Under the pieces are notes generated by a model. It did no database searches and was not told the DNA's origin. It saw only the letters and a program-made list of their open reading frames with translations. From IMG/VR virus record IMGVR_UViG_3300044624_000829, positions 1 to 55,092 of that record: a stretch of 55,092 nt of DNA; one strand, given 5' to 3'. This stretch comes from a virus. The stretch's first letter is position 1; the number at the start of each line of letters is the position of its first letter. The position numbers were made by a program, and so were the translations under genes. This document shows positions 1 through 17,400 of this stretch, piece by piece.

Positions 1-3000
1 TTACCCATTTTACCAGCATAAGAACTTTCAAATAAAGCTGATCCAAATATCCATACTTTATCTGTTTCTTTAAACTTAGTTGTTTTAGAAGCTAACTTTT
101 CAGGATATAACCTTTGTATTTCTGTAGCGTAAAATGTTGCAACGCTAGGTTTAGCAATCATATCTGTTTCTTTTCCTATAGCAATAGTAGAACTATTTGC
201 CATTTGTTCATCTACAAAAGAATGTTTAGCTCGCTTTTCTTCTGAAAATGCAATAGATATGTTGTCTTTAGTTTGACCTATTGATTTTGGTCTAATTTCA
301 ATAACGTCTCCTGTATTATCAATACCAAAATAATCCATTAGTATTTCATCTAAAGCTTCTTGTAAATATTCATCTTGAACATGAAATTTAGTTTTGTTAA
401 TTACTGCTACAGGTTTTCCTTTAACAGCATCTAAAAACTCCCAGTTAATATCCAAACCAGGTGAACTTAAATCTAACTCTGCACCTTTTTTAATCTGTTC
501 TGCTTGAGAAGAAGTTGTAGTTGATTGTTGAGTAGATACAATAGCTGGTGCTGTAGGCATACCAGGTTCTAAAGGCATTACTCTTCTCATAGTAATAGTA
601 ATCCTGTGAGAACCGGCAGGATATGTTTTACCATCAATTTTTGTAGTAAGTTCTGGTAAGAATGTATTTTGTGGAGTTGGAAATGTTCTATGCCATACTT
701 CTCTATTAACACCATCTACTCCAAATATATAACCTGTCCCAGCTTCTAAATTTAATTGACCTTCTCCTGGTATTCTTTCAATTGAGAAATTGCCTTTACC
801 GCCAAGATTAATCCCAATTACTGGATACTTGCTAGCTGATCTACTTTCATCTACATCATTATGAGAAGATATAAAAGTATCTTTCTCATAAAGATTAATA
901 ATTGCACCATCATAGTTTGTCATATCAACTCCGGTAGCTTTTTGCATCAGCTCTCTAAATCTTGGTGAAATCTGTCCAAGTGGTTGATCATTAATAGATA
1001 CATCATAATATCCATATTTGTTTTTATTACTTGGATTAATTACATCCGGAATATTAACAGCAGTTCTTCCTACATTGTTACTTTTATAATCCCATCTTAA
1101 ACCAAGACCAATCATTTTACTAGCTTGTGCTCCTTTATTAGTTTTAGCAGCTTGTTCTTCAAGATAGGGTTTTAAATAATCAAACAACTCAAGTTGTTCT
1201 TCTTTAGTTAAAGCAGCTTGATTTACGTATATTCCAGGTACTACTTCTTCACCTTTAGGTTTATTAATATTACTTACTGGTGCTTTAGTTGGTTGAGTAG
1301 ATGGTTGAGTAGACATTGCTGTATCAATAAGCAAGTTATCAAGAGTTAATTTTGGATAAGGAATATTTACTCCATCAAATTTAGTATATGCTTTTACAAG
1401 AACAGTACTTAGATTATTTAAAGCTTTTCCTTCACTTTCAAATTCAAATTCATCAATCATTAAGTTAAGACCTTTTTTACGCTGATACCATTTAGGTACT
1501 GATTCACGTTGGTACACTTCCACAAACTGATCTAACAAAGGAACTTTAATATCTTTCATTGGAATGCCTTGACGCATTTGAGATACCCCTTCTTCTAATT
1601 GTTTTACAATTTCAGAAACACCAATTTCTTCTTCAATTGTGCTATAAAATTTAGATTGGTCTATTATACGAGACAAGTTAGTAATACCAGAACTAGAAGC
1701 TCCAGCTTGTAAAATTGCTAAATGATCAAATAACTCAAATAATTCTGCTACTTCCGGATATTCACTATTTTTTAAATCAGCTAAATTTTCTTTATATGTA
1801 TTAACTAACAATGGATCTTCCAAGTCATCGATATAAAAATTTGCTTTTTGTGTAGCTACTGTGTACTCTCTTCGTAAATCTGCTATAAACTGAAAACGTT
1901 CTTTTAAATCTGGATGTTTTTTCTTCATAGATTCAATCATCGTAACAACACCCATTCTCATATCAAAAAATGCTACATTATTACGAGATCTCCATAAAGC
2001 TAATTTATCTTTTATAAACGAAATAGTATTAGTTGTACTACCCATATAATAATATTTAGCTCGTATTTCTTTATCTGTTAATTGAGAAAATTCAGCTTCT
2101 ATTTTTTCTAATTCAACTCTATATCTTAAATAGTGCCCTTTTGTTGGAAAAAATTCAGTTTCATATTTTATATTAAAGTCTAATATACTTCCTTCAATTA
2201 ATGCGGGACTATAGTAAATTGTATTGCCTTCAACATTTATAGGAACTTGTATATTTTCATTAGCAACAAATTCATAACCATCATAATTTTGAGATTTAAA
2301 AAATGCATTTTGATATAAGAAAAATCCAAAATCATCTTTAAATCCAATATAAGCTAATTCCTTATCAACATTTTTAGGTCTATCTACAAATAAAGATTTC
2401 TTCATTGTCATAGGGTTATTCCTAATGGCAAACCTACTAGCAAAGAGATCAATTATAAATTGATCGTTATTAAATATTCCTAGAATAGATCCAAAAACTC
2501 CATTTTCATCTTTCTCTAACAATTTTTCATACCACATAAAAGGAATGGCCGATTTTGTATTAGCTCTTAATTTTACTAATTCATCAAGTCTTGCTTGATA
2601 TTCTGTTAGAGATTGAGGTTTTTGAGTGTCAAATTTAGTAGCCATTGTAAATGCTGTAAAATCTTCAGCCATATCTTCTACTTGAAAATAATGCGCTAAT
2701 AGTTTATAATGATCAGCTACATTGTCTTCAGTTATATCTTGTGTTACTCTATCAGATAAATACTTATCAGCCATTAAATCTAATGGATTTAAACTATTTG
2801 CCATAAATGCATTGTATTCATCATCTGGCATTATTTCTAACTGATCTTTCATTAGCATTTCTTGATAACGTGCTAATATTTGAGCTCTTGCTACAGTTTT
2901 AGTGTTGTTTGATGCAAATGGAGCCTTTTTGTATTCTTTAGTAATACCACTAAACACACCTTTCATTTCTTCTTTTAGTGTATTATATTCTATTACCATT

Positions 3001-6000
3001 GGCAATGATGCAAAATTAACAACATCATCTACTTTCATTCCGGCCATTACCATTAATAACATTTGCGGAACATTTTGCATATTACCTTGAACATTGAATA
3101 TCCAAGGATTTGCTGCAACATCTACAAAGCCGTTAATTAATTGTCCAATAACATCTTGAATTGTTTTTCCATCAATATTTTCTAAATACCCTAATGCTAT
3201 TTTATTACCATCTTTATTATGTGGAAACTTTATAGTTAACGCTTTTGGAAAACTTGCTAATGTTTCTTTTGCTTTTGCTAATTTATTTTCATTTATAGCT
3301 TCTCCATTTAAAGATCGAGTAACAATAAGTAATGCATCATTATATATTTCTTGTTGCGAATCACTTAATCCATTTAATGTGCCGCCAAATTGAGTTAGTA
3401 ATGCATAATACGTTGAAGTAACCGCAGCAATACCCAATGCATCCATTCCTTTAAAATTCTCTTGGTGCTTTAGTAAGTTATAACGGTAATCAAAAATGGT
3501 ACTATTTGCAATTGTAGAATTTTCATTAATAGGCGCAACAGGTACATTATTACGTATGTCTTCAACAGTTCTATTATCAAACTTATTGTAAGCTTTAGTA
3601 AGCTTTCTACCTAAGTCTGCAGCAATGCCGTCAAACATATCAGTAGAGTTAGGTTCAGCTAAAGATTTAAACATTGAAGGATTTGTAATACGCTGATTTA
3701 ATAGAGATACAATTTTATTTTCAATTGCCTTTCTACTCTTACCGTATAATCTACGTAATGCTAAATCTAATTTTTCATTAGCTTTAGCTAAATCTTCAGA
3801 CTTTAATCTTTCTATTTCATCATCGTATGCAGCATATTCTTCAGAAATAATTTCACCACCCTCAAGTTTTATTTGATCGTGTAGTTTATTAATTTCATCA
3901 TTTAATTCTTTAATTCTAGCTGTTGTACCATTTGGACCATGATGAAATTTATTCTTTTTACTTTGATTCCAATTCTTATATTTTCCTTCTCCTTTAAATA
4001 CTTTTTCTGCTTCTTCTCTTAAAGTTTTACGTTCTGAACGTAAAGAATTCATGTTATCATATACTTCTGAAAGAATTTCTTTTACTTGAGCGCTAACGCT
4101 TTCTTTATTTTTAAAAAGCCATTCTTTACCTGAATATTCTTTATTAATTAAATCTTGAACTTTTTCTACTTCTTGACGTGCTAATTCAACAGCATCTGAT
4201 AATTCAGTGCGCGTTTCCTTAATACCTGGTATGTATTCCGCTAATTCAATATTTCCATTTATGTTAACAATGTTAGGATACAATGAAAACAATTTATCAA
4301 TATCGAAGTCAGATCCAGACTTAGCTACAATTTCAGAAGGTAGAATAACTATAGGTCCTGCAATAGGAGGGAGAAATTCTTTTACCCTAGCTGATTCTAA
4401 CATTGAGAATTGTGATGTAGGAATACGTGTAGCTGGTAATGTAATAAATTCTTCGTATAAATCTAACCATTCTTCATCTAGTAAGGCTTCATTAAGTCTT
4501 TTTAAAGACGCATCAAAGTCTACTTGATATTTAAACTCTTTTGTTTTTTCATCAAAGACAGATTCATATTGAATAATTTTTTGTCCTTTAAATTGTGTGT
4601 ATAAAAGTTTTTTAAAATCTCCTTGTAAAGAAATTTTAATTTCCATGCTTTTTACATATTTAAGATCATTTTCAGATGTAGCAACTGTGCCATCTTCTTT
4701 TAATCCATAATATGTAGATAATCCATTATTACCGTATTGAAATACTTCTTCCGTACTAGCAAGTCTAGGTTTTTCTACAACACCTTCAAGCATTGTTCCC
4801 GGAACTTGCACTAAAGGCTCTCCATTAACTTCCAAACGTCTTAATTCATCATCTGCAAGTTTAATTAACACCTCTTCAATTTTTGAAGAGTTTAATGATA
4901 AAGAAAGATCTGGTATTAACTGGTTAGTAGATTTATCATAAATAAAAGCTACTTCTTCAGCTGTTAATTGTTTATTTGAAAGTTGTTCTTTAATATATTG
5001 AGCAAACTTTTCAGTTGTACCTGAGTATTCTATTTCACCTGTAGTAGGATTAACTACACGTCGTAATCCTAAATCTTCTACAATTTCATCTCTAGCAATA
5101 GCTACTAAATTGTCCATTGTAGAAATATATTCTTGAATCCATTTAAAGTTTTCAGAAGCTGCTAATTTTTCGTTATAAGATAAATTTTTCCACTTCTTGC
5201 GTCCTTTATAATCTCTAGGCACATCGTTCTTATCAAAAAGTCCTGTCAAATTAATTTTACGCATCTGAGAAGGTAAAGTAACTGTGCCATGATAACCTTC
5301 ACTTTGTTGACTTACACTTTTTAAATGTCTTACGTGTATTGTATTTTTTGTAAACTTAATATCTCTATTTAAAGATCTAACATCAATATCTACTTCCTTA
5401 CCATCTATAGTTGTTTTTTCCTTATTAATAACATAAGGATTATCATATTGCGGCCCATCTTGATTTATTCTAACTACGTTAGATAATTTAGAACCAGTTT
5501 GAAAAGTAACGTAATCAATACCTTGTTCCATCATCATTTGATGAACTTGCTCTAATGGAGCACCTTCAATTAATGTAGGTATCAATGGTATAACCGAATA
5601 TTTATGAAATGATATAAGTTGTAATCTAACTTGTTCACTTATATCAGCATTTAATAACGGACCATATTCTTGATATTTACGTACAGGAAAAGTAGCTTTA
5701 ATTTTTAATTGGTTAATGTTTTCTCCACGTAACATAGCTTGATATACATCTTCTTGTTCGTCTGACCATTCTTGATGAGATTTACTTAATAAACGATATG
5801 TGTCAAATGAAATATAAGCTGCGCCATCAGCTTCTTTCATTTCGCTATACTTCTCTTGAGGAATACCTAATACTTCTGCATAATGTTTTCTGTAAACAGA
5901 ATCGGATTTAGCTTCTAATATGATAGCTGTTTGTAAATGACCATTGTAAATTCTTTCTTGATATGTATCAGTTAATCCTAACTCTTGTCTTCTTTCTTGA

Positions 6001-9000
6001 GATAAACTATCAAAATGGTTTTTACTAAACCCATCTCTTTCGTATTTACTTGAATTAATATAATTATACCATGATTCACTATGACGCATCATTCTACCAG
6101 TAGATATTTTACCGGCAATACGTTTATGAAAAGCTTCTTCAGACACTCCATAATTAGCTGGATCACCTAAGAATGTACCGTAATTTAAATTCTGAATGTA
6201 ATTGTTAATTATAAAAATCTGAAATAACCTCATACGAGTTGTAAATTCAGACTCTTCTCCTAGTGTATATTCTTCAGAAATATTATCAGCAACTGTTAAT
6301 ATCTTATCTTTTTCAGTATGCAACTGAGTAGCTCTCCACCCAAAATAATCTTTTAAATCTTTCTCTATATCTTGAATTAAAGTAGGATCAAATTCATTAA
6401 TTGCATCTACAATAGTAAAAGATTCTTCTAATTGTAATTCCTGTAACCGGTCTTTAACAGATTTAGATAATAACGAACTAAACTTAAACCAGGTTTTACC
6501 TCTTGCTAAAAACTTAGGATCAAATAAAACTGTTTCACCATTATCAATACGCTCCTGAACTTTATTTAAACGTGTCATACGTAATAATTCAGATTCAATA
6601 TGACCTTTAAATACATCAAATAATAAAGTTCCGTTATAATTATCCTGATACATTTGAAACGTTTCCAGATTATTTATCCATAAACCTTTACGAATTTCAG
6701 TTTCATTATCTTTTTTAATAGGATGATTTGTAACCATAGAACTACTTTTATCAGAAGTTCTCATGATCTCTTGATAGTTTGCTAAGGTTTGTCCAAAATC
6801 AGTATTAAACTTTGTACGTTCATCAGATTTTCTAGATTTAACACCTTTTTCAACTCCATTATGTACAACTTTTGCACCAGTTAAATGTTGTAATGTTATT
6901 TTAATATCCAAATTTCTTTTACCATAATCACTGTCTGTTTTATCCTTATCCAAATTGTACATTTTTACAATAGTAAGGTTAGCTGAAACTTCCGGATTAT
7001 TTTCATAATTGTAATGTTGCATACCTGGAGTATTAATCAAATCGCTATATACTACAGGTCTATACTCTCCAAGAGTTCGATCATAAATTTCAGTTCTATT
7101 CAATAGTGATAACTCAATTGAAAGAGATGAATGCAAAGACTTAGTAGACATACGTTCACCATATGCCGTATATTCCATAAATGACATCGCTACTTCATCA
7201 AGAGATAAAGCCAGATTAGCAAGTTTAGTTAAATAACCTGTTAGAGATACTTGCTTACTAGAAGATTTGGAATTTTCATTTTGCAAATAATCAAAGGATC
7301 CAAAAACAAATTTTAAATTTGTAATTATTCTTTGAGATTCTTTTATAGCACCTTCTCTATTGACTATTGAATTATAAATATATTCAGTCATTTTAGGTTC
7401 TATATCGTACTCTGCTGAACCTTCTAATAAAATTCGTTGCAACTCTTCTGAATATGAAAAATCAATTCCCAGATCTCTATAAAAACCTACAGGATCCATC
7501 TTCCACATTACTTGTTCTTTAACTTTAATTCCTTCTTTTTCTAATTGATTTCTTCGTTCAATACTTGTAAAGTAATTTGTTTCATCACCTTTAATATAGT
7601 ATGCAATTGCTCCCCATTTATTTTTAATAGCTGTTGGCAACAAACCAGTTTCTAGCTTACCGTTTATAATATCTTCACCATAAACATCTAAAACGCCATC
7701 AATAACATTCTTTTGAAAATCAAAATCCCAATCTTTTATTTGACTATTTGTATTGTTGTGAGTTTTACCTACTTTAGCTATTAACCTACTTTCTTCTTTT
7801 TCAGCATTGTCTTCTTTTTCTAATTGATAAGCCAATAATTTAATGTCAGCTTTATTAAGACTTCTCCAAAAATTTCCCCATTGATCAATCTCAAAAGGAG
7901 TAATATTTGGATTAGTAGGATCACCCAATCTTTCAACTAATTGTTTTAATACATTATCTTTTGCTGAAGCTTTAACTAAAGCGTGATACATTTCTTCTTC
8001 AGTAGTTCCTTTATTAGCAGTAGCATTAACAACTTTAACCAAAGCTGTCGCAAATGGTAATAATTTAGGTATACCCAAACTACTCATATTTGCAACTGTG
8101 CTTCTTCCAGCTTTTTGATAATCGTATAATGTACTTAATATAAATTTTGTAAAGCCGTCAACATCGTCAGCTATTTTCTTTTCTGTTCCTGTTTTATCAA
8201 AATTCCAATCTTCCGGATTTATATCTTTTTCATCTTGTACATATTCAACACCTTTTAAATTAAGCGGTGTAAAATTGTTTAAGAAGATACCCATTATTGA
8301 TGTATTGTCGCCATCTAATGCGTCAAACCCTTCAGTAATTACATTGTAATCACCAAAATATTCTAAGGCTTTACTTAGCATTACTACGTCTTGCAAATCC
8401 GTTCTATTAACTGAAGATTCTATATTAGAAATTGTGGCTTTAGCTTTTTGTACTAAATCTTGATTTAAACTTTCATCCGTTAATGACTGCTTAACTAATT
8501 GCATAGCCTCAATATACGCATCTATTTTTCCTTCTGTAATTCCAGCACCTTTAAGTTTTACTTTACGTAATTGATCCATACGTATTTGAATATATTGAAT
8601 AGCATTCAATAACATTCTAGGATTTCTTTGTAAAGCAATAGAGTTACGTCCACTAAAATTTTCAGCTGACTGTTTATACTTTGTTCTAAAACTTACGGTA
8701 GCTTTTTTAAATCTTTCTTCAAAAGGTTCTATTGCTGTTTTATTTAAAGGATCAATGCGTGCTATATCTATCCATGCTGTTGTGGCCTGGTCAAATATTT
8801 CATCAGATGCAAAAATAGGATTGACTACATTGTCAATATAGTTTACATATAATGTTTGCATTGTTGACATAGCTTTATGCATTTCTGCATTTGTCATATT
8901 TATGTCTTGATCAAATTCAAAACTCTGAAATTTTTCAAAATTACTTTGAGGTGCAACAAATTGAGAAATATCTATTTGTCCATCATATAATTGTTGAAAG

Positions 9001-11405
9001 TGAGTTTTAACTTTATTAGATACAAACCCTAATGTAACAACTTCACTATAAGATCTATTACCAAACATTCTTTGAAATAAATCTTTAAGAATTTCAAAGA
9101 ATCTTGCGATTGGAGATTTTAATTCTTTATTATATTTACTTCTATTACGAGCATATTTTCTAAATTCTTCTGCTAAAAATTCTTCTAGTTCTAATTCTGT
9201 TGCTGTATCAAAAGATCTGGTTTTCTTTTTACCTTGTACAGTTACAGTAAAAGTCTTTCCTTTATTTTCAGTACGTAATGAATTATATATTTCATTTCGT
9301 TGTGTTTCAGTTAATAGTCCTTCAAAATAAGCGTGAAATACTTCGTGATATAAATCTGTATTATTAGATCCTTTCCATAAACTAATTGTATTCCCAATAA
9401 AAGATGCTACAAACTTTGGACCTTTAGCATGAAAATCATCACTCATTGCTAATTTTAATACTTTCAACCATCCTGAATTCTTTAACCAAGTCATAGCTAA
9501 AGTATCTTCATTCCAAAACAAATTGCTTTCTAAATCATTTATACGTGACTTATCAGCTATAGATTGAAACATTATATCTTCAGAAGGTGCTGTATCTTCT
9601 GTATTAGGCATAGTTGGATTAAATGCCAAATAAGGAAACGCAGGTCTTATATTTTTACTTGCATCAACAACAATAGTAGTATCTGTACTTTCAATAATAT
9701 GTTGTTTTAACGGTTTTGTTTTTACAGTTAATACGTTACTTTGAATAGAATCTATTCTATATATTTCTCCAGTTTCAATACTAAGTGTGCTGGGTAGTAA
9801 TCCAAAACTAACTGTAGGTTTCATAAGAATCATAGGTCGTCCATTAACTCTTACATATTGACCTTGCTTTATATTTTTTAATTTTCTTAATATTTCTTGT
9901 TCTGTTTTGCCTTCTACAACTGTATAATTTGTAGGAGCTGTATAGTTATTTGAAACAGGAACAAAATGCCATTTACTAATATGTTCTTTAAAAGCAGTTC
10001 TAAAGTTTTCAATATTTGCTCTTAGTTTCTCTTTATCTTTAACTGCAGTAGTACTTATGGTATAATTTTGACCAGCCAGCACAATTCCCGTTACTTGATT
10101 AAACGTGTTAAATTTAATTTCAAATCCTACACCACTTGTTCCTCCATGCGATAATATAGGCATGTATGATCTTATAAATTTTTCTCTAACATCTTTTGAA
10201 ATAGAAACACCTTGATATCTTAAACTATTATTAGTCAATAAATCAACAAATAAATCTATTTCATCTTCAGTTAAAACTTCAGCAAAAGCTCTTTCTCGTA
10301 ATGGTTCTATAACATCATAGTTAGGAATTCTTATAGCCGCACCTTTAAATGTACCAGTAGCATTTATTTCAAAACGTAATTGATTTAGATTAGCTACCTC
10401 TACTAGCGGTGTAGCTAGTAAAGTGTGATGTTCAATAGTACCTTGACTACTACGCGATAAATCTATTGTAAAAAATACTTCATTTTCTGCTTGTACTTGT
10501 TTAATACCATCTTTTATAAATTGTAAGTAAACATCAACTTCTTCATTAATTTCTGCAAGCGCTTGTTGTTTAGTTTTATTTTTTGAATTTTCTACGTATG
10601 CTTTTATTTGAAATTCAAATGCTTTCTTATTAGTCTTTATAGGAAAAATAGGAAATACGCCGTTATCATCTAAAACACCTTGCTCATTAAACGTAACTAA
10701 ATTTCCACTAGAATTAACGAGCACCATTACATATGGACCAGCATTAATTTGTTCTTCTGCAGTTAAAGTTTCACGATATGCCGGATTATTAATTACATCC
10801 TTTTTATTTACAAGTTTAAATTGTAAATTTTCAGAATTTGAAGAATTATAAATTCTTAATTGTATTTTAGATACAATTTCTTTTTTAGGATCTAACTTAT
10901 TTAATTTATAAGATCCGTCTTCATCTTTTGTTGCTTCTTGATTTATTACTGTGTATAAAGGAATTTTAACACCTTCAAATCTTCCAATTATTATTTCTTG
11001 TAACGGAACATAAATTTCTTTTGATCCTACTGCGGATCCAATATTTTGTACAACACTTTTAAAATCTTCTGTATTATCTGACTGAACAGCTTTAATAATT
11101 AATGCACTATTTTCATCTAACTCTTTTTTAATAGATGAAAAATTATTTGCAAGTAGCGGATTAGTAGCAATATATGTACTAATAAGTTGTGGAGCAACAG
11201 TTAAATGTTGCAAAACTAATTCTTCTAAAGATATATCTTCAGCAGCCAATGAAACCTGTTCAGCATTAAAATCAGAAAGAGCTTCATTATAAAGCTCTGT
11301 TAATATCTGATCGTAGGTTTTATTTTCTTTTACTATATCTGGCAGTTTTCTATTAAAATAAGTTGATAATAATTTTAATGAACTAGGCGAAATACAAACT
11401 TTCAT
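1..11405 (-). CDS. Giant virion RNA polymerase polyprotein with zincin and AlkB-like domains (partial)
   Basis: The frame starts at ATG 11405, one base after the previous stop, and stays open to the left edge, giving at least 3801 residues. I translated about three-quarters of it by hand and checked the remaining lines for stop codons; none occurs. Order of parts: N-terminal region; zincin-type HEVFH at 687-691; RNA polymerase DPBB1-like segments (DGAAYISFDTYR near 1860, RKYQEYG with K1910, HK at 1934-1935, TGSK ending K1973); DPBB2 with RIPT at 2327 and catalytic DFDID at 2366-2370; a helical region with FVDVAANPWIFN near 2760; Gln/Thr/Pro linkers; an AlkB-like domain (about 3480-3610); and a possible Rossmann-like domain cut by the edge. 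Known crAss-like phages carry a virion RNA polymerase in such giant proteins, injected to transcribe early genes. The full length is unknown. Confidence 0.9.
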   Translation of the reverse strand, partial: MKVCISPSSLKLLSTYFNRKLPDIVKENKTYDQILTELYNEALSDFNAEQVSLAAEDISLEELVLQHLTVAPQLISTYIATNPLLANNFSSIKKELDENSALIIKAVQSDNTEDFKSVVQNIGSAVGSKEIYVPLQEIIIGRFEGVKIPLYTVINQEATKDEDGSYKLNKLDPKKEIVSKIQLRIYNSSNSENLQFKLVNKKDVINNPAYRETLTAEEQINAGPYVMVLVNSSGNLVTFNEQGVLDDNGVFPIFPIKTNKKAFEFQIKAYVENSKNKTKQQALAEINEEVDVYLQFIKDGIKQVQAENEVFFTIDLSRSSQGTIEHHTLLATPLVEVANLNQLRFEINATGTFKGAAIRIPNYDVIEPLRERAFAEVLTEDEIDLFVDLLTNNSLRYQGVSISKDVREKFIRSYMPILSHGGTSGVGFEIKFNTFNQVTGIVLAGQNYTISTTAVKDKEKLRANIENFRTAFKEHISKWHFVPVSNNYTAPTNYTVVEGKTEQEILRKLKNIKQGQYVRVNGRPMILMKPTVSFGLLPSTLSIETGEIYRIDSIQSNVLTVKTKPLKQHIIESTDTTIVVDASKNIRPAFPYLAFNPTMPNTEDTAPSEDIMFQSIADKSRINDLESNLFWNEDTLAMTWLKNSGWLKVLKLAMSDDFHAKGPKFVASFIGNTISLWKGSNNTDLYHEVFHAYFEGLLTETQRNEIYNSLRTENKGKTFTVTVQGKKKTRSFDTATELELEEFLAEEFRKYARNRSKYNKELKSPIARFFEILKDLFQRMFGNRSYSEVVTLGFVSNKVKTHFQQLYDGQIDISQFVAPQSNFEKFQSFEFDQDINMTNAEMHKAMSTMQTLYVNYIDNVVNPIFASDEIFDQATTAWIDIARIDPLNKTAIEPFEERFKKATVSFRTKYKQSAENFSGRNSIALQRNPRMLLNAIQYIQIRMDQLRKVKLKGAGITEGKIDAYIEAMQLVKQSLTDESLNQDLVQKAKATISNIESSVNRTDLQDVVMLSKALEYFGDYNVITEGFDALDGDNTSIMGIFLNNFTPLNLKGVEYVQDEKDINPEDWNFDKTGTEKKIADDVDGFTKFILSTLYDYQKAGRSTVANMSSLGIPKLLPFATALVKVVNATANKGTTEEEMYHALVKASAKDNVLKQLVERLGDPTNPNITPFEIDQWGNFWRSLNKADIKLLAYQLEKEDNAEKEESRLIAKVGKTHNNTNSQIKDWDFDFQKNVIDGVLDVYGEDIINGKLETGLLPTAIKNKWGAIAYYIKGDETNYFTSIERRNQLEKEGIKVKEQVMWKMDPVGFYRDLGIDFSYSEELQRILLEGSAEYDIEPKMTEYIYNSIVNREGAIKESQRIITNLKFVFGSFDYLQNENSKSSSKQVSLTGYLTKLANLALSLDEVAMSFMEYTAYGERMSTKSLHSSLSIELSLLNRTEIYDRTLGEYRPVVYSDLINTPGMQHYNYENNPEVSANLTIVKMYNLDKDKTDSDYGKRNLDIKITLQHLTGAKVVHNGVEKGVKSRKSDERTKFNTDFGQTLANYQEIMRTSDKSSSMVTNHPIKKDNETEIRKGLWINNLETFQMYQDNYNGTLLFDVFKGHIESELLRMTRLNKVQERIDNGETVLFDPKFLARGKTWFKFSSLLSKSVKDRLQELQLEESFTIVDAINEFDPTLIQDIEKDLKDYFGWRATQLHTEKDKILTVADNISEEYTLGEESEFTTRMRLFQIFIINNYIQNLNYGTFLGDPANYGVSEEAFHKRIAGKISTGRMMRHSESWYNYINSSKYERDGFSKNHFDSLSQERRQELGLTDTYQERIYNGHLQTAIILEAKSDSVYRKHYAEVLGIPQEKYSEMKEADGAAYISFDTYRLLSKSHQEWSDEQEDVYQAMLRGENINQLKIKATFPVRKYQEYGPLLNADISEQVRLQLISFHKYSVIPLIPTLIEGAPLEQVHQMMMEQGIDYVTFQTGSKLSNVVRINQDGPQYDNPYVINKEKTTIDGKEVDIDVRSLNRDIKFTKNTIHVRHLKSVSQQSEGYHGTVTLPSQMRKINLTGLFDKNDVPRDYKGRKKWKNLSYNEKLAASENFKWIQEYISTMDNLVAIARDEIVEDLGLRRVVNPTTGEIEYSGTTEKFAQYIKEQLSNKQLTAEEVAFIYDKSTNQLIPDLSLSLNSSKIEEVLIKLADDELRRLEVNGEPLVQVPGTMLEGVVEKPRLASTEEVFQYGNNGLSTYYGLKEDGTVATSENDLKYVKSMEIKISLQGDFKKLLYTQFKGQKIIQYESVFDEKTKEFKYQVDFDASLKRLNEALLDEEWLDLYEEFITLPATRIPTSQFSMLESARVKEFLPPIAGPIVILPSEIVAKSGSDFDIDKLFSLYPNIVNINGNIELAEYIPGIKETRTELSDAVELARQEVEKVQDLINKEYSGKEWLFKNKESVSAQVKEILSEVYDNMNSLRSERKTLREEAEKVFKGEGKYKNWNQSKKNKFHHGPNGTTARIKELNDEINKLHDQIKLEGGEIISEEYAAYDDEIERLKSEDLAKANEKLDLALRRLYGKSRKAIENKIVSLLNQRITNPSMFKSLAEPNSTDMFDGIAADLGRKLTKAYNKFDNRTVEDIRNNVPVAPINENSTIANSTIFDYRYNLLKHQENFKGMDALGIAAVTSTYYALLTQFGGTLNGLSDSQQEIYNDALLIVTRSLNGEAINENKLAKAKETLASFPKALTIKFPHNKDGNKIALGYLENIDGKTIQDVIGQLINGFVDVAANPWIFNVQGNMQNVPQMLLMVMAGMKVDDVVNFASLPMVIEYNTLKEEMKGVFSGITKEYKKAPFASNNTKTVARAQILARYQEMLMKDQLEIMPDDEYNAFMANSLNPLDLMADKYLSDRVTQDITEDNVADHYKLLAHYFQVEDMAEDFTAFTMATKFDTQKPQSLTEYQARLDELVKLRANTKSAIPFMWYEKLLEKDENGVFGSILGIFNNDQFIIDLFASRFAIRNNPMTMKKSLFVDRPKNVDKELAYIGFKDDFGFFLYQNAFFKSQNYDGYEFVANENIQVPINVEGNTIYYSPALIEGSILDFNIKYETEFFPTKGHYLRYRVELEKIEAEFSQLTDKEIRAKYYYMGSTTNTISFIKDKLALWRSRNNVAFFDMRMGVVTMIESMKKKHPDLKERFQFIADLRREYTVATQKANFYIDDLEDPLLVNTYKENLADLKNSEYPEVAELFELFDHLAILQAGASSSGITNLSRIIDQSKFYSTIEEEIGVSEIVKQLEEGVSQMRQGIPMKDIKVPLLDQFVEVYQRESVPKWYQRKKGLNLMIDEFEFESEGKALNNLSTVLVKAYTKFDGVNIPYPKLTLDNLLIDTAMSTQPSTQPTKAPVSNINKPKGEEVVPGIYVNQAALTKEEQLELFDYLKPYLEEQAAKTNKGAQASKMIGLGLRWDYKSNNVGRTAVNIPDVINPSNKNKYGYYDVSINDQPLGQISPRFRELMQKATGVDMTNYDGAIINLYEKDTFISSHNDVDESRSASKYPVIGINLGGKGNFSIERIPGEGQLNLEAGTGYIFGVDGVNREVWHRTFPTPQNTFLPELTTKIDGKTYPAGSHRITITMRRVMPLEPGMPTAPAIVSTQQSTTTSSQAEQIKKGAELDLSSPGLDINWEFLDAVKGKPVAVINKTKFHVQDEYLQEALDEILMDYFGIDNTGDVIEIRPKSIGQTKDNISIAFSEEKRAKHSFVDEQMANSSTIAIGKETDMIAKPSVATFYATEIQRLYPEKLASKTTKFKETDKVWIFGSALFESSYAGKMG
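579..990 (-). other. AlkB-like 2OG-Fe(II) dioxygenase domain in the giant protein
   Basis: Read by hand: NLY, then HND at residues 3515-3517 (855-863), then H3572 (690-692) in VWHRTFP, then RITITMR with R3601 and R3607 (585-605). In E. coli AlkB the corresponding residues are N120/Y122, H131-x-D133, H187 and R204...R210. The spacing N to H (11) and H to distal H (57 versus 56) fits closely. Strands such as YPVIGINLGG and AGTGYIFG also fit the jelly-roll. Fe and 2-oxoglutarate ligands all appear present, so the domain is probably active. Confidence 0.82.
4250..4480 (-). other. RNA polymerase DPBB2 catalytic region (DFDID)
   Basis: RIPT (R2327), then FLPPIAGPIVILPSEIVA, then the triple-aspartate DFDID at 4296-4310 (D2366, D2368, D2370), followed by K. 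This matches the DxDxD signature that binds the catalytic magnesium in all two-barrel RNA polymerases. Crassvirales enzymes often have DxDxD rather than DFDGD. Confidence 0.85.
5440..5860 (-). other. RNA polymerase DPBB1-like region of the giant protein
   Basis: Segments DGAAYISFDTYR, RKYQEYGPL, FHKYSVIPLIP and TFQTGSK occur in this order. They supply basic residues (K1910, K1935, K1973) of the kind that line the first double-psi beta barrel in two-barrel RNA polymerases (beta-like). The order agrees with my recollection of crAss-like giant polymerases. Confidence 0.75.
9165..9347 (-). other. Zincin metalloprotease motif inside the giant protein
   Basis: HEVFH (9333-9347, residues 687-691) is preceded by a hydrophobic strand and by DLY. 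About 55 residues later comes EEFLAEEF (residues 741-748), which can supply the third zinc ligand, as in gluzincins. A likely role is self-processing of the giant chain or cleavage of partner virion proteins; this is inference. Confidence 0.7.
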
Positions 11406-11406
11406 A

Positions 11407-14400
11407 TTACTTACAAGTTTTAAATTGTTCTGCTATTTGAGATCTTAAATCTTCTTCGTTAAGATCTTTATCAACATCAGACATGATATTATTAAAGTTA
11501 CTAAAAAAATCGGTAAAACTAGCCTTAATTATCTCAACATCATTATTATTTAAAGATAAATCTATAGGGTTAGTGTTTAGTGTACTACCTGGTTCATATA
11601 TATCAGCAATGCTAGGAAATAGTTCTGTGATACCTTCTACTTGAAATATCTCATTTGTTAACTGATTCCTTAATCCAAAAAGTACACGTTGATCTGTATT
11701 AGTATTTATAGGCGTTATTTCGTATACACCTGCCGGAACAACATCCGTTGAAGATTGAAATTCATTAATTTTTATAGTACGAGAAGGACTAAATATCTGA
11801 TTGCTAAATGATGCTAAACGATATTTAATAGATCTAATAACTGCATTTTTTTGATTATCGCTATATGCTGTAGATGTATTGTACAATGACAAGTAAATAT
11901 AAACCAAATCTTCAAACTTAGAATTAGCTGTAATTAAGTTGAACATTGTTCCTACTTTTTGTGCTGGATTCATACCAGAGATAGTATTTACATCATACTC
12001 TCTAACTTTTTTTACAATAGGATCAATTGCTGTTTTAGGAACAAAATCTTCTTCTTCTACATCTTCTTCAACGTCTGGTTTTTTTGTTGTATCCTTATAT
12101 ATTTCATCATAAGCTCTACGTTCTACATCATTAGCAAGGTCTTCTCTTGTACCTTGATATGTTCCGTTGAGTATTTGCCCTAACGTAGTTGCTTCAAAAT
12201 CTAAATAAATTTGATTTACGTTTGAGCCTTCTGATTCCCAATAAGCATTTAAAATTTGATTATATTCATATGCTTCTTGTTCTTCAGCTTCTTTAAATTC
12301 TCTATTACGTTTTTCTTCTTCTGTTTCTTCTGTTTCAATTTCAGGTTGACCATAAGTATTTATTAATTCATCTATCATTTTAGATATACCGCCAAATCTT
12401 AAAATTACATCTACAACTTCTTTTTTAGCATCCTCGGTATCAAAATTCATAGCTTCAGTACGATTCTCCCATATAATATGTGCAAGTCCATCAAGTGTTA
12501 CTCCTGTTGTATTATTAAGAATACTCATTCTTGCGGCACTTTCAGCTTTAATACTTTTAGGACCTTTTAAGCTTTTTGTATTACCTAATAATTTTTGTAT
12601 AACTGAAGAATTTATTTTACCTCCTTTAATAAACCATTTTAAAACTAATGCTCGCACATCATTACCAGTATCAACAAGTAACGCTTGTTCTTTTCTAGAA
12701 AGCTTTGTTGATTTTGTATCAAGCTTATCTTGTTGTTGCTGCATAGTATCAATCTGCGCTTGAGTTTTAGTTGTAATTCCATAGTTACCAACTTTTCTTT
12801 TACTTTCACTCCAGGCAATAGTTAAATTAGATCTAACAGCATTTAATTTTTTGTTTAAAGCGTTTACTAATTCAGATGTTATTGCTCGATTATTTGCCGC
12901 ATTATTTAATTGTGTACGAACATAATCTTCAACTTGCGTAACAGATTTATTTTTAACATTAAACTTACTTACTGTTTCAGCCAACCTGGAACCATTAGAT
13001 AAATATTTTAAAACAGCATCAACAAAATCTAAATGCTCTAGTCCAAACAAACTTATTTGAAAATTACGCAAATACGCAAGGTCTCGTTTATTAATACTCC
13101 ACGTTGAAAATCTCGAAGCATAGCCTTTATTAGTTCCTTCGTAGTTATGTTTAGATGTATCTAAATAATTCCAATTATACTTAACATTACTTGTTACTTC
13201 ATCAAATTCATCAGCAGGCACCCCAGAAGATTGTTTTAATTGATCTTCAGTTTTTAAAGTTCCTAACGTTGAAAAATCAATAGGTGTTGTAAATGATGAA
13301 GTTGTGGTACTTTTACTTTTGTTAACAGGACTTAATACAGGTAAATCTATTTGAACAACTGAACCCGTTTGAGCAACCGGGCCCGTAGGTTTTTTCCAAT
13401 ATATATTATTCTCATTTAATCCAAACTTTTGTAAATAAGGTAACAATGCAGCTTTTACCTTTTCAAATTCTTCTTGAGTTTTAACTTTTATATTTGGAGT
13501 TTTAACGTTTGTATTTTGAAACGCATCCTGATTTAGATCTATCCCTAGTTCATTTACTATTGCGTCACCATTTATAGAAACTCTATCTGTTATTAGATTA
13601 CCATTTTCATCATATTCTAATTGATATGTGTTTCTATCTATTTGATTACCCCATATTCTAAGTCCATCAGTAGATATACTAGTTTTTTCTGTGTACTTAT
13701 GATCAGAGGGTAGTCTTTCCTGAACAGAAGACATCATTGTCTTAAAGTTCTCTTTCTTTTTATTATCTACTTCTGCGTTTCCAGTTTCTTTGTTTTCAAA
13801 TTTAGAACTCCACTTATTTGTTGGTTTTCCATTTTCGTATATTCTATAATATCCTACAAAATTCTCTTCTGAAAACCCGCTTATTACAGTATCTATTAAT
13901 CCAGTTTTTTCATTTGCATATGTAGCTACAGCTATTCCATTTATCACATCAACAGTAACAGGAATTGCATTTTCTGCAGATCCTGTTGGTAACGTTGCTC
14001 CTATAAATAAATCATCAACGCCTTCTTCTTTTAGTTTAGTTTCTGTTTCTTGATTCATCCGAGTTATTTCAGATGTATCAATGCTACTAGGATTTTTTAC
14101 TTCTGCAACTGGTATATCAAACGTAAGACCATCTGTAAATCCTTCAGTAATATCAAACAATGTTTGATCAAATGCTTCTGCTAATTTTTTAAATTCCTCA
14201 ATAGATGTAGCATTTGCAAGTTCAGTAGCAAACTCGTTTAATTGTTCCGTAGTAAAGACAGTTGTTAAGTCAATATCAGGATACACTGATTGTATATCTT
14301 CTACTGATTGTATAGGAGAGGTATACTCAATTTTAGGTTCTTTACGATTAGGATCAAATGGAACAATAGAAGCTTTTGTTGTAAAGTCAACAATATAGTT

Positions 14401-17400
14401 TACTTTATCTTCTGCTTTTGATACAATCCCTGTATCCGTTTCAGTAAAGGTATATATCATACCTGAACGACCAACTAAAATATTGTATCGTTTATTTGCA
14501 TCACTTCGCGTAGCATAAATTTGATAGTTGCCTTGCGGTGTAATCTTAACTTTATCAATAGTAATTGTTACTTTAGCTTCTGTACCCCTATCACCTATTA
14601 TAGCTTCAAATTCTACACCTACAATATTATTAATATTGTTAGCCCATCCATTTTCAGAATACGTATCATTAATAAGTTGTTCTAATACAGTACGAGAATT
14701 TTCCGTTATTGTTACTTCTTCTCCTAAATGATTTATAAAAGTTGTAGTATAACGTAAGTTACGATCAATAAAAACCTCTTGAATGTTATCTAAAGCCCTT
14801 TGATTTGCATCATTTAATTCTTTGATAGCTTCAGCACTAAGCATTAAAGGTTTTGCTTCATCATTTTCTTCCTCATCTTCTTCCTCTGTAGTTTCTGTTA
14901 CAGCAGGTGCAGGTTGCTTATTTGCATTCCTATTATATTCTCCAATAATATTAATAAAAGACGTAGTAGGCATTAAGTCTTGTATCTCTTGTATCTGCTC
15001 GTCAGTTAAATAATCCAAAGCTTTTTCATCTCCTTGTAAAGCCAATAGATTAAACCCTCTAAAAACTGCTTCCTTAAATGCTACAGCATCGTCTTCTGAT
15101 ACCTTTTTTAAAAAACCTTGTACATTATCAGGTATATCTTTCTCATCCCTAGCTTGTAATTCTTGTAACTTCTCAATAGAAATAAGGGGAGCTTTACCTT
15201 TATTATTATTAAGATAAAACGCAGCTAACTTTAATTGAAGGTCTAACGGTAAATTTATAAATTCTGAACGGCTAGTGACAACTTGATTACTATCATCGTC
15301 CTCTTCATTTAACACAGGAGTTTTCAAATCAGGCTTTGCTCCAGTTGGAGTTTCTGTAACTGACTTTTCTTTTTGCTCAATACTCTTTAATTCTTTTATT
15401 AAAGTATCTACTTCTTTTTGTATAGCCAGCTTTTGTTTCTCTAGTTGTCCTATACGTCTAAACTTTAATCTACTTGTTCTATTAATCTCTGAGTTAATAC
15501 CATTTACATCTTGCTGTAATTTTTTAATTTTTAAATTAATTACTTTCTTTCTATCAGCTAATTCATTTAAATTAACAGGTACAGGTGCCGGCTCTTCAGT
15601 TACTTGTTCTTCTTCTACTTCTTCTTCCGGAGGTACGTTTGCTACGGGTGCAGTTTCTTCACCTTCCATTTCTTCAGGAGTAGGCTCTTCATCTTCTTCT
15701 ACCTCATCAGTTTCATCAGTTTCTTGTATAGGACCGCTTTCAGCAGTGTCTTCTATTATAGCTTCATCAATACTTAGTTGAGTTATACCCAGTATAGAAT
15801 CTAATAAAGATCCTTTAATACCATTTGCCCCTAATTCATCACGTAATTCATTATTTAAATTTCTCCATAATGATTCTTGGTTGACATCTGTTGAATTAAC
15901 AGTAGATGCTAAAAAATTTTGAAAGTTTATATTAGCATAAGCTTCTGTTAAAAATACCAAAGGATTATTAAAAATGTCAGAAGTTTCAGCTTGCGCTATT
16001 TCCATGCGTTTCTGCTGATCATCCTTATTGCTATTGTTAATGTTGTTAATGTGAGAAGTCTTTGCTAAATCCATTAACGTGGTAATGTTATTTTTTAACT
16101 CTTCATCAACTTGAAAACGTTTAACAAATACATTTTGTACAATTCCAGAAATAGCAATATACTCAAATGGCGTAGCTCTAAGTGCACGCACACCTTGATC
16201 ATATTGAGATTCTGTAATTTTATTTGAATTAACAGCTTTATCTAATTCAGCAATACTAGAATACTTTACTCCATTTATTTCATAATTAGCTCTAGCAAAA
16301 TCAAATGCCCCAAACCTTACATCTAATACCAGATCGCCATTTTCATTAAACGATACAGGACTTTCTGCTTCATCTGTAAGAATTACATTTCCGCTTAGTA
16401 TTTGATTTGTTATATGATACTCTTGTAACTTTTCTAATATGCGAATTTCAGATTTAGATAAATATCTATTTCCATAAGCCATCATATTATTTACAAAGTC
16501 TATAATAGGAACAGGAACGCCTTTATTTTTAGCTCCTACATATTGTTTAATTATTGTAGCTGCTCTACGTTTATCTGTTTTAGATTTATCTCTTGTTGCT
16601 CTTACACCAGTTTTAGCCCCTATAAGTTTTTTACCTTTAAGCTTTTTGTAATACTTTTCAATTATTTTAACTGCTTGTTTATACTTTTCGGCACTAATCT
16701 CTTCTTTACTATTAACATCAAATAATGTAGAAGGCATTACACCTTTATCGTACAAATCATCTAGTTCATCTAATTCAAAGATGATTCCATTTTCTAATAA
16801 CTCATTAAGCATATCATCTGATACTTCACGAGTTTGCCATGCTTCAATAGCTTTTTCTATATAAGCTTTTTTGTTTTTACCAAATTCAACAAGCATTTCT
16901 CTATTGGCACGTAACCATTGTGAACTATATTCCGGATTACTTAAAAGATCTGCATAGTATTCTAACTCTTTTGATTCTTCATCTAATCTGTAAAAATCAA
17001 ATAAAGAAGCAAAACGTCTTTTATATCTTTGATACAAATTTTTATCACTTGCTAACGCACTTGCATCTGGCATACTATTTAATTCAGTATTTACAGCAAG
17101 CATATATCTAGCAAATGCATCTTCCATGGCATCACGTTCTTTTTGAACAGAAGTAGCGTTAGATCTATCAAATTTAGGATCATTAAATTTTGTTAAAGAT
17201 TCTTGTAATGATTTTAAAGCGTCTAGCTTAATTACAAGTTGTTGATGTTCTCTAGTATTATCTAATTTATACTCTTTGTTGCTTTCAACTTGAGTAGTTA
17301 ACATATCTATTTGTTGCGCTAAATCTGATTCATTAGTAAGAGCTACAACATCTAAATCCGTAAGTTTAGTATTCTTTTTTAAATCAGATTTGATATTTTC

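Follow-up and report, generated by a model that had tools for sequence, protein, structure and literature searches.

How did an AlkB-type dioxygenase come to lie inside the giant RNA polymerase chain of a crAss-like phage, and is it a fixed part of that polymerase? The question is raised by a contig of 55,092 nt (IMG/VR record IMGVR_UViG_3300044624_000829, positions 1 to 55,092), referred to here as the window, in which both enzymes are encoded by one open reading frame. The reading favored here, to which a probability of roughly 0.78 is assigned, is that the chain represents a polyvalent, virion-type crAss-like RNA polymerase and that the region outside its core serves as a payload bay for exchangeable enzyme cassettes, AlkB among them.

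A polyvalent chain with a crAss-type RNA polymerase core

The giant chain is encoded on the minus strand (3..11405; ORF list and translation) in a frame that runs unbroken from 11405 to 3 and is still open where the contig ends, leaving 3801 aa and a lost C-terminus. Along this frame, a zincin-like motif, the RNA polymerase core, the AlkB cassette and one more module can be distinguished. The zincin-like metallopeptidase motif, HEVFH (HExxH; residue 687, 9333..9347, minus strand), is recognized as a sequence motif alone, and a Pfam search of the chain yielded no zincin match for this region. The RNA polymerase core (3261..6410, minus strand) was delimited by searching the PDB with a profile built from an alignment of 15 core sequences (A2). 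The sole PDB match of this profile is the RNA polymerase of phage phi14:2 (6VR4, E = 4.9e-49), and the match includes the region of the catalytic DFDID motif (4310-4296, minus strand; residue 2366); the DxDxDK signature is invariant among the 15 cores. By this profile homology, the core is a crAss-type RNA polymerase with a DxDxD motif, related to that of phi14:2. The continuous frame and the 6VR4 match thereby bear out the proposal of the first-pass annotation that AlkB shares one uninterrupted frame with an RNA polymerase core.

Since RNA polymerase, AlkB and the HExxH motif are united in a single chain of a phage genome, and sibling chains add NADAR, cpYpsA, ART-PolyVal and helicase modules, the protein is assigned by its domain content to the polyvalent class, which is defined by disparate enzyme domains accompanied by a zincin-like motif. 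The giant chains have no match in PHROGs, and tblastn searches of 50,697 INPHARED phage genomes with the C-terminal 1000 aa and the RNA polymerase core detected no relative. The module that follows AlkB (3..518, minus strand) is cut at the contig end and contains '..MANSSTIAIGKETD..DKVWIFGSALFESSYAGKMG'. It shows 39-41% identity to the tails of three chains that lack AlkB (L028, L029 and L030), and its own tail, DKVWIFGSALFESSYAGKMG, matches theirs. Directly upstream of the giant chain, a second giant protein of 2719 aa is encoded at 11407-19566 (minus strand), for which neither a PHROG match nor a Pfam match over cut-off was obtained.

The affiliation of the phage follows from its structural genes. 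The large terminase subunit (TerL) and the portal protein match phrog_6681 and phrog_6547, respectively, and the portal shares 22-25% identity with crAss-like portals in alignments that span up to 97% of its length and reach E-values as low as 3e-56. By homology of these genes, the phage is crAss-like. The closest named relative of the portal is that of Leptolyngbya phage Lbo-JY46 (L026, PP438436.1; 32% identity), a cyanobacterial phage to which the window portal is nearer than to those of Bacteroidota crAss-like phages. The host range of this phage group may reach past Bacteroidota.

A complete AlkB-family dioxygenase domain

The AlkB domain (585..1232, minus strand) was identified by Pfam, structure prediction and fold comparison. 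Residues 3392-3607 match the 2OG-FeII_Oxy_2 family (PF13532) over positions 2-194 of the 194-position model (E = 1.7e-12; 48.4 bits, with a cut-off of 31.2 bits). The landmarks named by the first-pass annotation are all present at the spacing it gave: NxY (N3504/Y3506), the iron ligands of HxD (H3515, 861..863; D3517, 855..857), the distal iron ligand 57 residues past H3515 (H3572, 690..692) and the 2-oxoglutarate-binding RxxxTxR, here R3601-ITITM-R3607 (R3601-x3-T3605-x-R3607; 585..605), all on the minus strand. The three iron ligands are invariant both in an alignment of 20 sequences (A1) and in a broader one of 30 sequences (A3). RxxxTxR is invariant in A1, and in A3 its first arginine is absent solely from the type-B module of locus L118. 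In A3, the catalytic residues are thus conserved in 29/29 sequences of the same type and the iron triad in 30/30. In addition, an HxDxDE signature is common to the window-type domains and E. coli AlkB, and a profile search of the PDB placed OsALKBH1 and E. coli AlkB on top with the HxDxDE segment aligned.

Structure prediction points the same way. An AlphaFold2 model of the domain based on the 30-sequence alignment reached a pLDDT of 91.3 and a pTM of 0.90; an earlier run on 20 close sequences had given a pLDDT of 67, which rose to 91 once divergent loci were added. With this model, the 23 best Foldseek matches in the PDB are all E. coli AlkB (E of about 1e-11 to 4e-10, TM 0.63-0.67; 0.65-0.67 for those at the top). 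This fold similarity, the profile alignment to AlkB and the invariance of the metal- and 2-oxoglutarate-binding residues serve together as a proxy for the geometry of the active site. Judged by sequence and predicted fold, the domain is a complete AlkB-family dioxygenase with intact catalytic residues. The position first proposed for it, 579-990, does fall on the domain and had to be revised in extent: the domain occupies about 585-1232 and the mobile unit described below 519-1310.

Distribution of the fusion

A profile scan recovered the AlkB domain from at least 38 IMG/VR contigs, after a first scan had given 24. The domain lies within a long open frame in every checked case, barring frames cut by the contig end, and most AlkB frames of sufficient length contain the DxDxD motif. 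No standalone copy was found among the IMG/VR contigs scanned, and the GTDB genomes gave no match to the AlkB profile. The fusion is therefore not peculiar to the window phage. As the contig is a fragment ending inside the gene, an assembly or sequencing artefact could be suspected of having created the fusion, and the first-pass annotation had named a sequencing error as grounds for abandoning it. The occurrence of the domain within long open frames of 38 contigs rules this out and leaves an artefact with a vanishingly small probability. The fusion of AlkB to a chain of the crAss-like virion polymerase type is thus supported, and a published description of it was not found in the literature searched.

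AlkB moves between diverged chains as a DNA cassette

Comparison of AlkB-bearing chains separates the history of the domain from that of the polymerase. At the amino acid level, the window AlkB shares 94% of its residues with L002 AlkB and 88% with L005 AlkB; identity is 76-87% for most of the others and 58-60% for L021-L023. AlkB thus ranges from 58 to 94% relative to the window, whereas the cores range from 22 to 30%; among the AlkB-bearing chains in general, cores are about 21-33% identical and AlkB domains mostly 76-94%. Across 15 chains, the mean identity is 0.75 for AlkB and 0.35 for the core, and the two are hardly correlated (r = 0.14). TerL of the window is 49-53% identical to that of six AlkB phages and 24-31% to those of L012, L019 and L020.

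At the DNA level, BLASTN of the window against L002 returns a single common stretch, which begins at the upstream linker and extends from -53 to +715 around AlkB, at 93% nucleotide identity. Similarly, the segment from -29 to +742 is 96.9% identical between L022 and L023, whose sequences on either side of it agree at about 70%. Together with the linkers and breakpoints described below, the alignment to L002 defines the mobile DNA unit of the window as the segment from linker to linker (519..1310, minus strand). The place of AlkB within the chain also varies: it lies 850-1850 residues past the core in most chains, before the core in L016 and mid-tail in L011 and L015. In L016 (8303-18295), AlkB is placed N-terminally to both the zincin-like and the polymerase motif, so that the usual order is inverted. 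The nearest core relatives of the window chain (L027-L030, 38-41% identity) are without AlkB, and the window sequences to the left and right of AlkB align to L028-L030 with no AlkB between them; the borders of this AlkB-less site are approximate, since the alignment there has 30-40% amino acid identity. These comparisons of sequence identify AlkB as a cassette moving horizontally between highly diverged chains, not as a stable domain of the polymerase.

A conserved linker box at the cassette borders

A linker scan places an exact box, ACTCAACCATCTACT (TQPST), at the upstream border of the window cassette (1296..1310, minus strand) and a copy with 2 mismatches, ACTCAACAATCAACT (TQQST), at its downstream border (519..533, minus strand). 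The full linker, ACTCAACCATCTACT(AGTGTT), is read in frame as TQPST(SV), and DNA similarity begins and ends there. Among the loci gathered by protein similarity, copies with at most one mismatch occur 36 times in sense and 0 times in antisense orientation. Another extension of the box, ACTCAACCATCTACTTCNGT, was rejected because it gave a single match in a 22-aa frame; AGTGTT is the true extension. The exact 21-mer ACTCAACCATCTACTAGTGTT is present in 43 IMG/VR contigs, in sense frames of large proteins, and has no occurrence in the GTDB genomes (257 Gb), where the number expected by chance is about zero anyway.

The association of the linker with exchange was assessed through breakpoints, defined as ends of local alignments of at least 85% identity and counted as located at a linker when within 15 nt of it. 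After contigs had been clustered for independence, 56 of the 73 breakpoints lie at linkers, compared with 3.8 +/- 1.9 by chance (maximum 10 in 1000 trials) when ends are shifted randomly by up to 1500 nt; the loci were selected for having a linker, for which this shift null allows. Before clustering, with pairs that are not independent, the count was 124/163. In some AlkB cassettes, including those of L015, L020, L175 and L176, a clear linker is missing from one border or from both. A further peptide, GKQAIRDVY(E/T)xTFK, recurs just ahead of many linkers in unrelated contigs (L145, L120, L152, L002 and L013), as if it formed the end of one widespread module.

Further modules bordered by the linker

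About 30 classes of linker-delimited modules were distinguished in the sample, many of them without a Pfam name. One is a second, divergent type of AlkB with the same linker, found in L118 (1061-1840, Pfam E = 1e-7), L123 and L143 and 32% identical to the window AlkB; in L118, the first 2-oxoglutarate-binding arginine of RxxxTxR is replaced (KYTVTFTFRR) and the iron ligands are kept. NADAR or NADAR-like modules occur in the giant chains L061, L007, L015 and L185, beside AlkB or replacing it: L061 bears a NADAR module, and one also adjoins AlkB in L015 and, as a weak match, in L007. A cpYpsA module of the SLOG superfamily is present in L133 and adjoins AlkB in L018. Additional classes comprise ART-PolyVal (L159, slightly below its Pfam cut-off), an AAA_33/zeta-toxin-like kinase (L142) and DUF7831 (L130, L149, L158 and L021), and in L010, L011 and L015 AlkB has an SF1 helicase as its neighbor. 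A cpYpsA-like cassette shared by L059-L062 and L078 shows 99.5-99.7% identity across the 621 nt between its linkers, has differing neighbors on both sides and apparently reflects a very recent swap.

Proposed mechanism

In the mechanism proposed here, modules would be swapped in frame between co-infecting phages when copies of the linker, or cassettes flanked by it, recombine homologously or anneal, and the linker would also supply a flexible Thr/Gln/Pro/Ser hinge. Homology at the linkers and within the cassettes is the most likely basis of exchange. Searches for ERF, RecT, Rad52 and RecA found none over cut-off in 18 linker-bearing contigs, which are possibly partial, with models that may miss divergent proteins. 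A bolder version, held tentatively and at somewhat less than even odds, is that the box of about 17-24 bp is itself a functional exchange site, through which a phage population would keep a common library of in-frame cassettes for injected counter-defense enzymes and swap them into its giant virion polymerases, integron-like inside one protein.

The chain would then be packaged and injected in the manner of the phi14:2 and PhicrAss001 RNA polymerase proteins, so that its enzyme modules are delivered with the genome. This step is drawn from the likeness to those two phages; in PhicrAss001, mass spectrometry of virions revealed the RNA polymerase-associated proteins, which are presumed to leave the particle together with the DNA (PMC10172136). 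Once inside the cell, AlkB would use Fe(II), O2 and 2-oxoglutarate to strip bases of alkyl (methyl) groups, either in the phage genome as it enters or in nucleic acid close to the complex of early transcription, before phage gene expression. Such dealkylation would undo marks, whether made by the host or by damage, that would otherwise prevent the initial transcription round. In a survey of jumbo phages, the AlkB proteins that occur sporadically in phages are interpreted as erasing or resetting methyl marks (PMC7824862), and the companion enzyme classes are linked to phage-host conflict (PMC5512222, PMC9503650). That AlkB acts by dealkylation as one element of a counter-defense set with NADAR, SLOG/cpYpsA and ART is given about an even chance. 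Of the inferred steps, linker-based exchange is held with the greatest confidence, packaging and injection with less, and counter-defense dealkylation with the least.

Alternative explanations

One alternative to exchange is a single ancestral AlkB fusion, kept under strong purifying selection while the core evolved very fast. crAss-like RNA polymerases are indeed extremely divergent in sequence (PMC7886860), and in the most distant pairs (L012, L019 and L020) the 4-fold sites of AlkB are saturated (32-39%; saturation at this base composition is about 41%, as estimated from site counts), so slow protein evolution contributes there. As the whole explanation, it is contradicted by the recent pairs. 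AlkB of the window and L002 shares 93% of nucleotides and 76% of 4-fold sites, that of L002 and L005 93% and 94%, and that of the window and L005 89% and 73%, whereas TerL of the window and L005 (51% at the amino acid and 60% at the nucleotide level) has fallen to 50% at 4-fold sites, near saturation. Since the AlkB 4-fold identity is high where TerL is nearly saturated, selection on the protein cannot explain these pairs. Similarity moreover stops sharply at the linkers, and AlkB changes its position among chains and is missing from the closest core relatives, which leaves the single fusion highly improbable.

Exchange might also occur without any role for the linker DNA. TQPST could be kept as a peptide only, as a hinge, protease site or packaging signal, with illegitimate recombination striking tolerant inter-domain regions and the survivors seen at the borders. 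Peptides rich in T/Q/P/S are typical of flexible linkers, the chain itself contains a zincin-like motif and the box is missing at some borders. This explanation is nonetheless considered unlikely, because 22 of the 24 TQPST peptides are encoded by the identical 15-mer, for which codon usage predicts 2.4% (the loci are partly related and the trials not independent), the proline codon is the minority codon CCA (29%) and DNA conservation extends beyond the core box to positions -2, -1 and +15 to +23. Less likely still is a dedicated enzyme, either a site-specific recombinase or a homing endonuclease, that would recognize the linker and insert cassettes there or exchange them. The conserved box of about 17-24 bp fits the length of such sites and the breakpoints are sharp at it; however, no such enzyme was found tied to cassettes or borne by them, in recombinase searches that covered ERF, RecT, Rad52 and RecA, and homology-driven exchange explains the data without one. 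As to function, AlkB could carry out ordinary repair of phage or host DNA damage, such as environmental alkylation, rather than counter-defense, which would be compatible with the cassette model. The HxDxDE signature and the closest fold are those of E. coli AlkB, a DNA repair enzyme. The co-traveling NADAR, SLOG/cpYpsA, ART-PolyVal and zeta-like kinase modules are conflict-related, and with the jumbo-phage reading of AlkB as a resetter of methyl marks (PMC7824862) they make simple repair the less probable role.

Relation to known systems

A polyvalent crAss-like polymerase with exchangeable cassettes shares features with several described systems. Polyvalent proteins are likewise giant, presumably injected chains that combine RNA polymerase with a zincin-like peptidase and ART or other effectors (Iyer et al., 2017; PMC5512222). 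Their polymerases are of the N4/T7 type, in contrast to the crAss-type core of the window chain. That work considered, with regard to a single bacterial locus, that cassettes might recombine, and its text contains no AlkB or other dioxygenase, crAss phages, linker or conserved DNA box at module borders. The RNA polymerases of phi14:2 (6VR4) and PhicrAss001 (gp47/gp49/gp50) have in common with the window a homologous core with the DFDxD motif in a giant chain; AlkB is not reported for them in the literature searched, whereas window-type chains have added and exchanged enzyme modules. E. coli AlkB and plant ALKBH1 share the fold, HxDxDE and RxxxTxR with the window domain at about 17-18% identity and are standalone proteins, unlike the domain embedded in a virion-type polymerase chain.

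A loose parallel is offered by the replicases of plant RNA viruses (Flexiviridae and relatives), which were matched in a BFVD fold search and carry AlkB inside a viral polymerase polyprotein. These are RNA viruses with an unrelated polymerase, and their AlkB is made in infected plant cells and not delivered by virions. We know of no linker-delimited exchange set in them.

Recent domain exchange within phage proteins, as seen in the window chains, has been described by Smug et al. (2023; PMC10684548), with a stress on tail proteins, lysins and replication proteins and an agnostic view of mechanism; linkers, crAss phages and dioxygenases are absent from the text. Phage NADAR, SLOG and Macro proteins (PMC9503650) belong to the same families as several cassettes and are typically standalone there, whereas here they are embedded in giant RNA polymerase-type chains. 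No literature combining crAss-like phages with AlkB was found, nor any mention of TQPSTSV, in a search that lay mostly outside subscription journals. Polyvalent proteins (PMC5512222) and domain shuffling in phage proteins (PMC10684548) are known; the literature searched describes neither an AlkB domain in a crAss-type chain nor cassettes bordered by this linker.

Implications for crAss-like phages

The long, poorly conserved and largely unassigned regions of crAss-like virion polymerases are explained in part as exchangeable payload. The cassettes also show how a phage could alter its injected enzyme set in a single recombination step while retaining its polymerase. Should the linker truly serve as an exchange site, it would represent a novel type of cassette system within a gene. 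The linker also offers a DNA signature for finding new injected effectors in metagenomes, namely by reading the sequence past TQPSTSV. Finally, the result makes it testable which host defenses are neutralized by genome-delivered proteins before phage gene expression.
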